DNA of 64,000 nucleotides from Thermosulfurimonas marina (GTDB taxonomy: Bacteria > Desulfobacterota > Thermodesulfobacteria > Thermodesulfobacteriales > Thermodesulfobacteriaceae). The stretch spans positions 620,001 through 684,000 of the forward strand of contig NZ_CP042909.1 in the NCBI RefSeq assembly GCF_012317585.1. Reading direction: 5' to 3'. The position numbers and the translations under genes are program-made. The notes under the pieces are model-generated. The model made no database searches. It was not told the DNA's origin and saw only the letters and a list, made by a program, of their open reading frames with translations. Shown here piece by piece: positions 50,608-56,528 of the stretch (its first letter is position 1; each line of letters begins with the position of its first letter).

Positions 50608-50650
50608 CCCTTCCTCGGGTGATAGAATGGACCCAAAAAGGAGGCTCTGT

Positions 50651-51511
50651 ATGTCTAAATTTTTGGCGATCCTCTGGTTACTCTTTCTTTGGGCCGCTCC
50701 CCTTTCGGCCAAGGACAACCCCGTAGTGGCCAAGGTGGGTCCTTATACCCTTACGCGGGCAGATTTTGAGCGGGAGGTAGAGGGGAATCCCCAGCTCAAG
50801 GCCCTGATTACCGTGAAACCGGAGATGAAAAAGATCCTCCTTGAACGATGGGTGGAGGTCAATCTTCTGGCCTTAGGGGGCAAGGAGGCCGGACTGGAAA
50901 AGGATCCCGAGGTTCGAGCCCAGATTGAAGAACAGATCCGCCTGATCCTGGCCCAGAACTTTTATCGGAAGAAGGTCCTTTCCGGCCTTAAGGTCACCGA
51001 GGGCGAGGCCCAGCAGTACTATCTCAAACACAAAAAGGACTACAGCCTGCCCGAGCGCATTCAGGCCCGCCACATCCTGATTCGGGTCCCGGAAAAGGCC
51101 TCCCCCAAGGAAGAGGCCGCGGCCCGGGCCCAGATTGAGAAGATCCGCCGGCAGATCCTGGCCGGGGCGGACTTCGCCAAGATGGCCCGCCAGTACTCCC
51201 AGGATCCGGGGACCAAAGAAAAGGGAGGCGATCTGGGGCTCTTTTCTCGGGGTCAGATGATCCCCGAATTCGAGGAGGCGGTCTTCAAACTCAAGGTGGG
51301 GGAACTCAGCCCTCCCATTCGCACCCGGTTTGGTTACCATCTGGTACGGGTGGAGGCGCGGGTCCCGGCCCAGGTCCAGCCTTATGAAAAGGTAAAAGAA
51401 CAGGTCAAAAAAGACCTCCTGGAAGAAAAGAAGACCGAGCGTCTTTCCGCCCTCCTTTCCCGGCTCCGTAAGAAATATCCGGTAGAATTGCATCCGGAGA
51501 ACCTTCCGTGA
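50651..51511 (+). CDS. Periplasmic parvulin-type peptidyl-prolyl isomerase (SurA/PrsA-like)
   Basis: The 286-residue protein has a signal peptide (to about residue 20, ending APLSA), an N-terminal SurA-like helical chaperone region and a parvulin domain (about residues 130-225) with QARHILIRV, FAKMARQYSQDPG, GGDLGLFSRGQMIPEFEEAV and TRFGYHLVRV. It would fold outer membrane proteins. ATG 50651 follows AAAAAGGAGG; the frame's first eight codons precede this site. Confidence 0.9.
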   Translation: MSKFLAILWLLFLWAAPLSAKDNPVVAKVGPYTLTRADFEREVEGNPQLKALITVKPEMKKILLERWVEVNLLALGGKEAGLEKDPEVRAQIEEQIRLILAQNFYRKKVLSGLKVTEGEAQQYYLKHKKDYSLPERIQARHILIRVPEKASPKEEAAARAQIEKIRRQILAGADFAKMARQYSQDPGTKEKGGDLGLFSRGQMIPEFEEAVFKLKVGELSPPIRTRFGYHLVRVEARVPAQVQPYEKVKEQVKKDLLEEKKTERLSALLSRLRKKYPVELHPENLP

Positions 51512-52071
51512 GGTTAGATCCCTGGTGCAGGAGCCTTCCGGAGCCTCTGGCCCGGGAGGTGCTCCGGGCCCCGGAAAGACATATCCTCTTTTTGGACATA
51601 GAGACCGAGGGGCTTTCCAAGGAACGCAACGGATTGACCGTGCTGGGAACCATGGTGGGACGTTGCTATCGGGCCTTTGTGGCCGGACACAATCTGGAAA
51701 AAGGTCCGGCCTATCTGGGGCGCTTTCCGGTGTGGGTGACCTTCGGGGGCTCTACCTTTGATCTTCCTTTCCTCCGGGCCCACTTTCCGCATCTCCCCGC
51801 CCCGGCCCTCCACATCGATCTTTGTCGGGTCTTTCGGCATCTGGGCTACCGGGGAGGGCTCAAGAAACTGGAGATACGTTTCGGGCTTTCCCGGAAGACC
51901 CAGGGTCTTACGGGTTATCATGCGGTAAGGCTTTGGCAGCGCTGGCAGCGGGAGAGAGATCGGCGCGCCCTGCGGCTCCTTCTCCATTACAATCGGGAAG
52001 ATGTGGCCAATCTGCGCCCTCTTCTGGAGATCGCGGCGGCCAAATTAGGCCGGGAGGCCCCTCTTGGATAA
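51508..52071 (+). CDS. RNase H-like exonuclease (DEDD, YprB-type)
   Basis: The 187-residue protein has the three motifs of a DEDD 3'-5' exonuclease: ILFLDIETEGL (Asp-x-Glu), the stretch GSTFDLPFLRA (second Asp) and the end HYNREDVANL (Tyr-x4-Asp type). It resembles the YprB/RNase_H_2 family. Start codon GTG 51508 overlaps the PPIase stop by four bases. Substrate unknown. It precedes the c-di-AMP synthase gene. Confidence 0.8.
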   Translation: MRLDPWCRSLPEPLAREVLRAPERHILFLDIETEGLSKERNGLTVLGTMVGRCYRAFVAGHNLEKGPAYLGRFPVWVTFGGSTFDLPFLRAHFPHLPAPALHIDLCRVFRHLGYRGGLKKLEIRFGLSRKTQGLTGYHAVRLWQRWQRERDRRALRLLLHYNREDVANLRPLLEIAAAKLGREAPLG

Positions 52072-53044
52072 GGAAAAACTGAGGATTTCCGTCACGGAGA
52101 AGTTTCTGGGTTACGCTGCAGACCTCAGCGAGACTTTGCCCTCCAGCGCCATACTGGTCTATGCGGATGTCTTCCCCGGAGGGGAGGAACTGGCCCGCTT
52201 TTTGGAACATGTCCGGGGGCACCGGGTGGTCCTGGTGACCCGGGAGGCCGGCTTTGAGGGCCCGGAGGGCACCGAGGTGATTGAGGTCCCAGGAATTAAG
52301 CTCACCCGGCTGGGGCAGATCAAAGTGGCGGTGCTTATCGGCGTGGCTCGGGGCCTTTTCAACCACGAGGATCTCCTCATCTGTCTTTCCGGAGTGGCGG
52401 AAAGCGGACACCTCGACAGCCTTTTTATCCTGGATCTGGAAAGCGAATTTGAGATCTTTGCCGTCTCCCAGCTGGAGGATCTGCGGGAAATTGTGCGGCC
52501 CGAAGTCTTTCAGCGGGTGCTTTCTCTGGCCATTGTGTTGGCCACCCAGGGTCGCGAAGGACGACCGGTGGGGACCTGTTTCATCCTGGGGGACTCCGAT
52601 GAGGTCCTTCAGCACTGCGACCAGATGGTGATCAATCCCTTTAAGGGCTATCCCGAAAATGAGCGCAACATCCTGGACCCCCGCCTGGAGGAGACGGTCA
52701 AGGAGTTCGCCCTGCTTGACGGGGCCTTTGTCATTCGGGGCGACGGAGTTATTGAGAGTGCCGGGGCCTATATCCGCACCGGGGTGGTAAGTGAAGATAT
52801 TCCCAGTGGGCTGGGGGCCCGGCACCGTTCGGCCGCGGCCATCACGGCCCTCACCCGGGCGGTGGCCATAACCGTAAGTGAGTCCACGGGCACGGTGACC
52901 GTTTTTCGTAACGGAAAGATCGTGATGGAGATCGAAAAACCTCATCCTTTGGGGCCGGAGACCGAATGGCAGCGGGCCTTCTATGCCGGCCCTCGGGCGC
53001 CTTCGGAATGGCCCCACCAGAAAAAGATCTCCAAAATCCCTTAA
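52064..53044 (+). CDS. Diadenylate cyclase, DacZ-like (pyruvate-kinase-C-like + DAC domain)
   Basis: The protein should make c-di-AMP from two ATP. The 326 residues split into an N-terminal domain (about 1-140) with the layout of the pyruvate kinase C-terminal domain, as in archaeal DacZ, and a DAC catalytic domain (about 150-295). The latter has both signature motifs: DGA at 219-221 (LLDGAFVIRGDG) and RHR at 253-255 (GLGARHRSAAAITALTRA). It lacks the membrane helices of CdaA and the HhH domain of DisA, so it is cytosolic. The start TTG 52064 follows GGGAGG and overlaps the upstream gene by eight bases. Confidence 0.85.
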   Translation: MDKEKLRISVTEKFLGYAADLSETLPSSAILVYADVFPGGEELARFLEHVRGHRVVLVTREAGFEGPEGTEVIEVPGIKLTRLGQIKVAVLIGVARGLFNHEDLLICLSGVAESGHLDSLFILDLESEFEIFAVSQLEDLREIVRPEVFQRVLSLAIVLATQGREGRPVGTCFILGDSDEVLQHCDQMVINPFKGYPENERNILDPRLEETVKEFALLDGAFVIRGDGVIESAGAYIRTGVVSEDIPSGLGARHRSAAAITALTRAVAITVSESTGTVTVFRNGKIVMEIEKPHPLGPETEWQRAFYAGPRAPSEWPHQKKISKIP

Positions 53045-53054
53045 GGAGGATGTG

Positions 53055-54560
53055 ATGCGCAACCGGATCGTCTGGCTATTTATCGGGCTCCTGCTTCTGG
53101 TCTCTTTTCCGGCTTCGGCGGAGCCGGGGATCTGGGACTCCCTTTTTAAGGTCAAAAAGGTGGAACCGGCTAAACCGTCCCCAACACCTCCTCCGGCGGC
53201 CTCGGAAAAGGATCTGGCTGTAGCCCAGGCCCTTTCCCGGGCCTTTGCCGCTGTGGTCAAACGGGCGGCTCCGGCCGTGGTCTTTATTGAGGTGGAAAAG
53301 ACCGTGGTGCGCAAGGAGCCCCATCCCTTTCCCTTCGGCCCTTTCCCTTTTGACTTTTTTGGGGACGACTTCCTGCGGCGCTTCTTTCCGCAGCTACCCC
53401 GGAAATATAAGCAACGAGGGGCCGGCTCCGGTTTCATTGTCACCCCTGATGGCTATATCTACACCAACAATCACGTGGTGGCCGACGCCGACCGGGTCAT
53501 CGTCAAGCTTGCCGACGGGCGGACCTTCAAAGGTAAGGTGGTGGGAAAGGATCCCCAGTCCGATGTAGCCGTGCTCAAGATCGATGGCCAGAATCTTCCT
53601 ACGGTGCCTCTCGGGGACTCGGACAAGATCCAGGTGGGGGAATGGGTGATCGCCATCGGAAACCCCTTCGGGCTGAGTCACACCGTGACCGTGGGGGTGG
53701 TGAGCGCCAAGGGAAGAAGCGGCCTGGGAATTACGGACTATGAAGACTTTATCCAGACGGATGCGGCCATCAATCCCGGAAATTCCGGAGGCCCCCTTCT
53801 CAACCTCCGGGGAGAAGTGATCGGGATGAACACGGCTATCTTTACTCGCTCCGGGGGCTACATGGGAATCGGTTTTGCTATTCCCATCAACATCGTAAAA
53901 CTGGTAGCCGAACAGCTCATCAAGCAGGGCAAGGTGGTCCGGGGCTGGCTGGGGGTGGTGGTTCAGGATCTTACCCCTGCTCTGGCCGAGGAATTTGGAC
54001 TTAAAAGTACGGAGGGGACTCTGGTGGCCGAGGTGATGAAGGGCTCTCCGGCAGACCGGGCGGGTCTCCAGCGCGGGGATGTGATCGTAGAATACGAGGG
54101 AAAACCGGTGCGCAACTCCTCCGAATTGCGCACATACGTAGGGCTCACCCATCCGGGGACCACGGTCACCATGAAGGTCCTGCGCAACGGCCGTCCGGTC
54201 ACCCTCAAGGTGACCATCGGGGAGTATCCCAAACGGGAGGAGCTTTCTTCAGCCGCCCCGGAGATTCAGAAGTTCCTGGAGGCCTTAGGCTTTGAGGTGC
54301 GGGAGCTCACCCCGGATCTGGCCCAAGAACTGGGTTATTCGGTAAGACATGGGGTAATCGTGGCCGCGGTGGCCCCCGGAAGCCCTGCGGCCATGGCCGA
54401 TCTGCGGCCGGGCCTTCTGATTGAAGAGGTCAATCGCCGGCCGGTAAAGACCCTGGAGGAATTTTACCGGGCCCTTGAGCCTTCCCTCAAAAGCGGCCGG
54501 GTCCTTCTCCTGGTTCGTGACCAGCACTTCCGCCGTTTTGTAGTTCTTTCCGTGCGCTAA
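53055..54560 (+). CDS. degP: HtrA/DegP-family periplasmic serine protease
   Basis: The 501-residue protein has a signal peptide (ending FPASA), a linker, and a trypsin-like domain with the catalytic triad in TNNHVVADAD (His), SDVAVLKI (Asp) and NPGNSGGPLLN (Ser). Two PDZ domains follow (about residues 300-385 and 415-500), both with GSPA-type binding loops. It degrades or refolds damaged envelope proteins. ATG 53055 follows AAGGAGGATG; an earlier frame start lies in the upstream gene. Confidence 0.95.
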   Translation: MRNRIVWLFIGLLLLVSFPASAEPGIWDSLFKVKKVEPAKPSPTPPPAASEKDLAVAQALSRAFAAVVKRAAPAVVFIEVEKTVVRKEPHPFPFGPFPFDFFGDDFLRRFFPQLPRKYKQRGAGSGFIVTPDGYIYTNNHVVADADRVIVKLADGRTFKGKVVGKDPQSDVAVLKIDGQNLPTVPLGDSDKIQVGEWVIAIGNPFGLSHTVTVGVVSAKGRSGLGITDYEDFIQTDAAINPGNSGGPLLNLRGEVIGMNTAIFTRSGGYMGIGFAIPINIVKLVAEQLIKQGKVVRGWLGVVVQDLTPALAEEFGLKSTEGTLVAEVMKGSPADRAGLQRGDVIVEYEGKPVRNSSELRTYVGLTHPGTTVTMKVLRNGRPVTLKVTIGEYPKREELSSAAPEIQKFLEALGFEVRELTPDLAQELGYSVRHGVIVAAVAPGSPAAMADLRPGLLIEEVNRRPVKTLEEFYRALEPSLKSGRVLLLVRDQHFRRFVVLSVR

Positions 54561-55649: not shown

Positions 55650-56105
55650 ATGGAAAAGACCGTAGCCACCAACAAAAAGGCCCGCTATCTTTATGAAATT
55701 GAGGAGACCTATGAGGCGGGGCTTGTCCTTACCGGTCCGGAGGTAAAGTCCCTGCGGATGGGCCGGGCCAATCTAGCCGACAGTTTTGCCCGAGTGGTAA
55801 ATGGAGAGGTCTATCTTTATAACCTGCATATAAGTCCTTATCCCTTTTCCCGGGAGGCCCAGTTCGAAGATCCACGCCGGACCCGCAAGCTCCTTCTCCA
55901 CAAAAAGGAGATTGAGCGTCTGGCCGGGAAGGTGGCCGAAAGGGGCTATACCTTGGTGCCCCTGCGGGTGTATTTTAAAGATGGCTGGGCCAAGGTGGAG
56001 CTGGCCTTGGCTAAAGGGAAAAAGCTCCACGACCGGCGGGAGACCATTAAACGCCGGGAGGAGGAGAGAGCTCTGCGCCGACGTTTCAAAGGCAAGATCC
56101 GCTAG
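55650..56105 (+). CDS. smpB: SsrA-binding protein SmpB
   Basis: SmpB binds tmRNA and delivers it to stalled ribosomes. The 151-residue protein has [20 protein letters not shown] at the start, [17 protein letters not shown] and the basic C-terminal tail [19 protein letters not shown]. The tmRNA gene lies 63 bases downstream, as in many bacteria. Confidence 0.97.
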
Positions 56106-56168: not shown

Positions 56169-56528
56169 GGGGGCGAAGTGGGCTCGACGGGGGTGTGTAG
56201 GCCTGAACGGCGTGCCGAGGTCCCCACCGCCTCGTTAAAAAGGTGGGAAAAACACAAGTGCCGACGAGTACGCCTACGCTCTGGCGGCCTAAAGAATAGA
56301 GCCGCCCGCTCCGGAAGAGACCTCGGCCCGCGGGTCCTCCGGGGCGACCGGTTAGCGGGCTGGGTGAAAGGGAGTGCCTGCCTCCCTTTCACTGAGAATC
56401 CTGCAGGCTGGGTGAAGGGGGAGCGCCCGGGTCTTCCCCTTCACCGAGAATGACTACCCGGGCTACGCACGTAGAAGTTCAGGCTGAAGCACTCTCGGAC
56501 GCGGGTTCGATTCCCGCCGCCTCCACCA
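56169..56528 (+). ncRNA. ssrA: Transfer-messenger RNA (tmRNA, ssrA)
   Basis: The 360-base gene starts GGGGGCG and ends with CGCCTCC, an A discriminator and CCA (56526-56528), so the two ends form a tRNA-like acceptor stem; the T arm GGTTCGATTCC is present. The tag reading frame, from about 56245 to the TAA at 56290-56292, encodes an ending ADEYAYALAA, matching the usual YALAA degradation signal. Hairpins between 56330 and 56450 are consistent with pseudoknots. SmpB is next to it. Confidence 0.95.

Follow-up and report, generated by a model that had tools for sequence, protein, structure and literature searches.

A gene of Thermosulfurimonas marina encodes what is most plausibly, with a probability of about 0.75, an accessory soluble diadenylate cyclase of the DacZ class, which would operate beside the membrane enzyme CdaA, feed a K+ control circuit and possibly be tied to protein-damage stress. 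The gene, dacZ, lies in a stretch of 64,000 nucleotides (the window, to which all coordinates without a locus label refer) of a 1.76 Mb genome in a single contig, and it is closely packed on one strand with ppiC, a nuclease gene and htrA. The features of the locus are as follows.

50627 to 51511, forward strand: ppiC, a PPIC/parvulin-type peptidyl-prolyl isomerase with a signal-like N-terminus (domain search)
51508 to 52071, forward strand: RNase_H_2 (DEDD-type) nuclease gene (Pfam), whose end overlaps the start of dacZ by 8 bp
52064 to 53044, forward strand: dacZ, a bacterial DacZ-type diadenylate cyclase of 326 residues, a complete open reading frame with a TTG start
52064 to 52483, forward strand: PK_C-like N-terminal (DacZ_P) domain, residues 1-140 (Pfam PF21755, AlphaFold2, Foldseek)
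52541 to 52921, forward strand: DAC catalytic domain, residues 160-286 (PF02457, Foldseek matches to DisA and CdaA)
52718 to 52726, forward strand: DGA motif, residues 219-221 (from the sequence; D and G invariant in the alignment)
52820 to 52828, forward strand: RHR motif, residues 253-255 (from the sequence; R and H invariant in the alignment)
53055 to 54560, forward strand: htrA/degP, encoding a PDZ-domain serine protease whose N-terminus is signal-like; no other Do-family protease was found in the genome
54584 to 54604, forward strand: terminator-like hairpin followed by a T run, 24 bp past the htrA stop

The start of dacZ is preceded by a GGGAGG Shine-Dalgarno-like site, and close relatives of the gene have likewise kept TTG or GTG starts behind GGAGG. 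The hairpin after htrA probably marks the end of the operon. Elsewhere in the window a tmRNA gene with the tag ADEYAYALAA (56169-56528) stands close behind smpB (55650-56105). The neighbours named in the original prediction are present, the gene of the DEDD-type nuclease preceding dacZ and that of the HtrA/DegP protease following it, and its description of the host as a Gram-negative type of bacterium fits the nearest named relatives of the genome, which are Thermosulfurimonas (Thermodesulfobacteriota).

The assignment to the DacZ class follows from domain, profile and structural comparisons. In Pfam searches the DAC family (PF02457) matches residues 160-286 with 76.9 bits against a cut-off of 27, and DacZ_P (PF21755) matches residues 12-130 with 39.2 bits against a curated cut-off of 27.4. 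Pfam detects in the protein neither the N-terminal transmembrane CdaA_N domain, which is found in the other DAC protein of the genome (L001), nor a C-terminal HhH region of the DisA type, the DAC domain being itself C-terminal. The best NCBIfam model is that of DacZ (128.1 bits, versus 44, 42, 31 and 24 for CdaM, CdaA, CdaS and DisA), but this score is below the curated cut-off of 430 bits of the haloarchaeal DacZ equivalog (NF041371), so the protein is not a haloarchaeal DacZ orthologue in the narrow sense. Profile scores are 156-160 bits to haloarchaeal DacZ versus 53 to the CdaA of the same genome, to which identity is only 39% over 77 residues; the DAC part is 40-41% identical to annotated haloarchaeal (Haladaptatus) DacZ. 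A spacer between NPF and DGA is common to the protein and haloarchaeal DacZ, and CdaA is without it.

Structural modelling agrees with this assignment. The AlphaFold2 model of the whole protein, built from 33 homologues (pLDDT 86.2, pTM 0.83), matches DisA best and also CdaA in Foldseek, in both cases through the DAC domain. When the first 140 residues are folded alone (pLDDT 88.1), the top Foldseek matches in the PDB are all pyruvate kinases, with E-values from 4e-7 and a query-normalised TM of about 0.6; the sequence profile alone gives a weak match to the C-terminal region of pyruvate kinase (E 0.02). Since the matches are all to pyruvate kinases and agree with PF21755, they confirm the PK_C fold that the original prediction had proposed for the front domain in place of CdaA helices or a DisA-like HhH region, and together with the DAC and DacZ_P domains they bear out its identification of the protein as DacZ-like. 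The protein is therefore placed in the DacZ class, with DAC and PK_C-like folds and intact motifs, by both its sequence and its model.

The DAC domain had also been predicted to be intact, and D219, G220, R253 and H254 are indeed invariant across the 33 homologues in the alignment. An alternative in which the protein is a catalytically dead DAC homologue that serves as a nucleotide sensor could draw on the variability of the third RHR position within the family and on the DAC score, which is about half of the 146.8 bits of CdaA; it is nevertheless highly unlikely, given the invariance of the four key residues and the occurrence of DacZ as the sole DAC protein in two well-assembled Desulfobacterota genomes (97% and 99% complete) and as the only one found in genomes of Opitutales, Armatimonadetes and some Planctomycetota. 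Its presence as the only DAC in such genomes suggests that DacZ makes c-di-AMP.

In the organism studied here DacZ is a second cyclase, because the genome also carries a canonical CdaA with CdaA_N helices (G000:C1, about 1743012), whose gene follows folP and precedes a YbbR-like (CdaR) gene. Formation of c-di-AMP at a DAC-DAC interface is established for the family, and the PK_C domain of pyruvate kinase binds fructose-1,6-bisphosphate. We infer that the DAC domain of DacZ would join two ATP molecules into c-di-AMP at such an interface, as a second source beside CdaA, while the PK_C-like domain, for which Braun et al. (PMC6741144) suggested a regulatory role, probably adjusts this activity through a small cytosolic ligand or a partner that it binds. 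Together with the output of CdaA, the product would most likely act on K+ proteins with RCK_C domains. Phosphodiesterases and receptors had been proposed as a check on a c-di-AMP system and were sought family by family in the genome. On the receptor side this yielded, by homology, a KtrA/TrkA-like RCK protein adjoining TrkH and an RCK-domain K+ channel, both carrying RCK_C. Among the four DHH proteins of the genome, one is a Mn-dependent pyrophosphatase, one looks like RecJ by its length and sequence, and one, a DHH-DHHA1 protein encoded beside truB, is similar to NrnA at a score under the cut-off and is the candidate NrnA/DhhP-like phosphodiesterase by which c-di-AMP would possibly be removed. 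The fourth has the DHH domain alone (L066:964-2010, 348 residues, without DHHA1), with weak similarity to the N-terminal part of the model for A-adding tRNA nucleotidyltransferase; it is possibly a phosphodiesterase. The sole match to 7TMR-HDED is under the cut-off, in an open reading frame that by eye resembles flagellar FliD, so no PgpH was found in the genome. A search of the window and of the K+ and cdaA loci for a c-di-AMP (ydaO) riboswitch gave none.

The taxonomic spread of the family, which had also been proposed as a check, is broad. DacZ_P is found in 6/6 sampled genomes of the Thermosulfurimonas genus (the present one included), in two more genera of its family and in two genera of the sister family (Thermodesulfatator-like), and it is absent from two large genera of the order (Thermodesulfobacterium-like) among the genomes sampled. 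Across the phylum it exceeds the cut-off in 54 of 395 sampled genomes, in many families, and it occurs in at least six other bacterial phyla, with named loci in Planctomycetota, Verrucomicrobiota, Spirochaetota, Nitrospinota/Tectomicrobia, Nitrospirota, Aminicenantes and Armatimonadota. Within the two DacZ-bearing families of the order, every carrier also has CdaA except for one genome that is 64% complete. Outside the phylum, genomes with both enzymes and genomes with DacZ only are found, completeness figures being available for the phylum alone.

The sister genera that lack dacZ carry ppiC, the nuclease gene and htrA in an unchanged order, from which dacZ is cleanly absent, and they still carry CdaA; dacZ is thus dispensable there. 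The operon does not require dacZ, and the adjacency of the nuclease is no evidence of a joint function. This bears directly on the proposal of a nucleic-acid surveillance or defence module made up of the DEDD nuclease, DacZ and HtrA, which would account for the close spacing and the gene overlaps seen in this order. The nuclease adjoins dacZ only in Thermodesulfobacteriales among the loci compared, the cluster without dacZ in sister genera makes the exonuclease link local to this order, and none of the neighbours examined was recognised as a defence gene. We give such a module almost no credence, and as a general link it is ruled out by the confinement of the adjacency to Thermodesulfobacteriales. 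In Thermodesulfatator-like genomes a gene for a protein of 352 residues lies between dacZ and htrA (L028:8948-10006); the protein has S30AE (ribosome hibernation) and sigma-70 region 4 domains and no NCBIfam match.

The linkage of dacZ to genes of protein quality control recurs more widely. The linked htrA is the sole Do-family protease in 3/3 checked genomes of the order (the present one, G008 and G032). In Nitrospinota/Tectomicrobia, htrA is directly upstream of dacZ in all 17 DacZ_P carriers among the 18 genomes searched, many of the pairs overlapping or sitting a few bases apart, and it is also upstream in a Desulfobacterota genome of another family (G344); the order of the genes is reversed in the present order, where it is dacZ-htrA or dacZ-x-htrA. 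In ten loci from three Desulfobacterota families dacZ is directly upstream of clpB; seven of the ten have rpoH no more than about 170 bp away on the other strand, and an eighth has it at a distance of about 1.5 kb. At the one such locus where identities were checked, ClpB and RpoH pass the NCBIfam cut-offs. In a further family rpoH is 1.2-1.4 kb and dnaJ about 5 kb from dacZ, and some dacZ loci have nearby RpoS-like sigma genes that score under the RpoS cut-off. On the DacZ tree the htrA-linked rows require at least three state changes, and the AU test rejects a tree in which the two main htrA-linked groups form one clade (p = 0.005). A rough Poisson estimate puts the chance of at least three such adjacencies at 1e-5 to 2e-4, a figure for a class of neighbour picked post hoc and with independent contexts that were assumed, not counted.

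The placement of dacZ beside htrA, clpB and rpoH suggests that the second supply of c-di-AMP is tied to the protein-damage response, either by being produced with it or by serving it. The original prediction had seen a hint that c-di-AMP is tied to envelope stress or to RNA/DNA surveillance; the recurrent linkage to htrA, clpB and rpoH lends indirect support to the former, and the latter is unsupported, given the restriction of the nuclease link to this order and the occurrence of nuclease and htrA without dacZ. A stronger version, in which DacZ is in several lineages a proteostasis-coupled second synthase, so that damaged protein would raise c-di-AMP through DacZ with HtrA or ClpB and apart from the supply from CdaA, is tentative and rather doubtful. 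Direct contact with HtrA is unlikely, because export is probable for HtrA and a cytosolic location is predicted for DacZ. No sigma-32-type promoter was found by a simple pattern search of the ten regions upstream of dacZ-clpB, eight of which have a TTGACA-N15-18-TTA site of the sigma-70-like, housekeeping type. Many lineages have unrelated dacZ neighbours, for example genes for MgtE, an SSF sodium symporter, Lnt and glycosyltransferases. Given the lack of a sigma-32 site in these regions and the unlike neighbours in many lineages, the link to protein damage is held here as a hypothesis. In two Planctomycetota a gene for an MgtE-type Mg2+ transporter is directly upstream of dacZ (L032:6171-7544 and L035:5156-6538), as identified by its domains in the first case and by similarity to the first in the second.

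These last observations are also what would be expected if DacZ were an ordinary accessory cyclase for osmotic and K+ control, like haloarchaeal DacZ, and its protein-quality-control neighbours were passengers of stable housekeeping operons, uninformative about its role. The ppiC-nuclease-htrA operon without dacZ, the position of dacZ-clpB upstream of ispE-prs-rplY-pth (names given by eye from translations), the sigma-70-like promoters and the osmotic role of DacZ in Haloferax (PMC6741144) all fit this reading, to which we assign roughly even odds; set against it are the repeated gain or loss of htrA adjacency on the tree, in reversed orders and at a low, post hoc chance estimate, and the fact that the htrA copy linked to dacZ is the only one of the Do family in this genome.

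Another kind of input to the cyclase is suggested by its fusions. A PTS EIIA_2 domain is fused ahead of DacZ_P-DAC in Opitutales/Verrucomicrobiota and in Spirochaetes (L040:7434-8861, L051:7488-8852, L056:7521-8864, L060:6933-8822 and L061:7293-8636), a likely route by which phosphotransfer acts on the synthesis of c-di-AMP. The fusions fit a metabolic or K+ input, since K+ transport in E. coli is under the control of EIIA-Ntr proteins. An apparent DacZ fusion of 864 residues in another genome (G047; L020:1-2367, L151:6523-9117) was rejected as an artefact, its added N-terminal frame being antisense to ychF.

The occurrence of an archaeal-style cyclase in a bacterium, presented by implication as novel in the original prediction, is not new. 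The DacZ/CdaZ branch was reported in 2019 to include bacterial proteins, so that the family is not exclusively archaeal, and a PK_C fold was predicted for their N-termini (Braun et al. 2019, PMC6741144); DacZ_P is moreover a curated Pfam family and common in bacteria. The present protein does not differ in kind from the bacterial DacZ_P-DAC proteins already described, which have the same architecture (PF21755; bacterial branch in Fig. A1 of Braun et al. 2019). The euryarchaeal DacZ proteins, that of Haloferax volcanii among them, likewise combine an N-terminal PK_C-like domain with a C-terminal DAC domain of the same subtype, whereas in the bacterial protein the N-domain is of the DacZ_P form, an NPFxGY...ER spacer is conserved and the gene lies beside htrA instead of in the mscS2 operon of haloarchaea; the protein is here also a second cyclase, while Haloferax DacZ is the sole cyclase there and essential (PMC6741144). 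CdaA of the same genome shares a DAC domain with DGA and RHR motifs but has membrane helices at its N-terminus and lies in the folP-cdaA-ybbR (cdaR) context, and DisA shares the DAC fold but carries it N-terminally, ahead of a C-terminal HhH region that is lacking here. Galperin's 2023 paper in J Bacteriol ('All DACs in a row') reportedly classifies DAC architectures including a DacZ_N superfamily. The bacterial-DacZ literature examined contained no mention of linkage between dacZ and htrA, and searches of the literature on c-di-AMP together with HtrA or ClpB listed no title or abstract that reports such a linkage.

Archaeal-type DacZ is widespread in diderm bacteria, mostly together with CdaA and, in some lineages, with no other cyclase found, and the EIIA fusions suggest that DacZ receives a further input. 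The recurrent linkage to htrA, clpB and rpoH offers a testable tie between c-di-AMP and protein-damage stress; if DacZ is in fact proteostasis-coupled, it would tie the control of K+ and turgor to protein damage.
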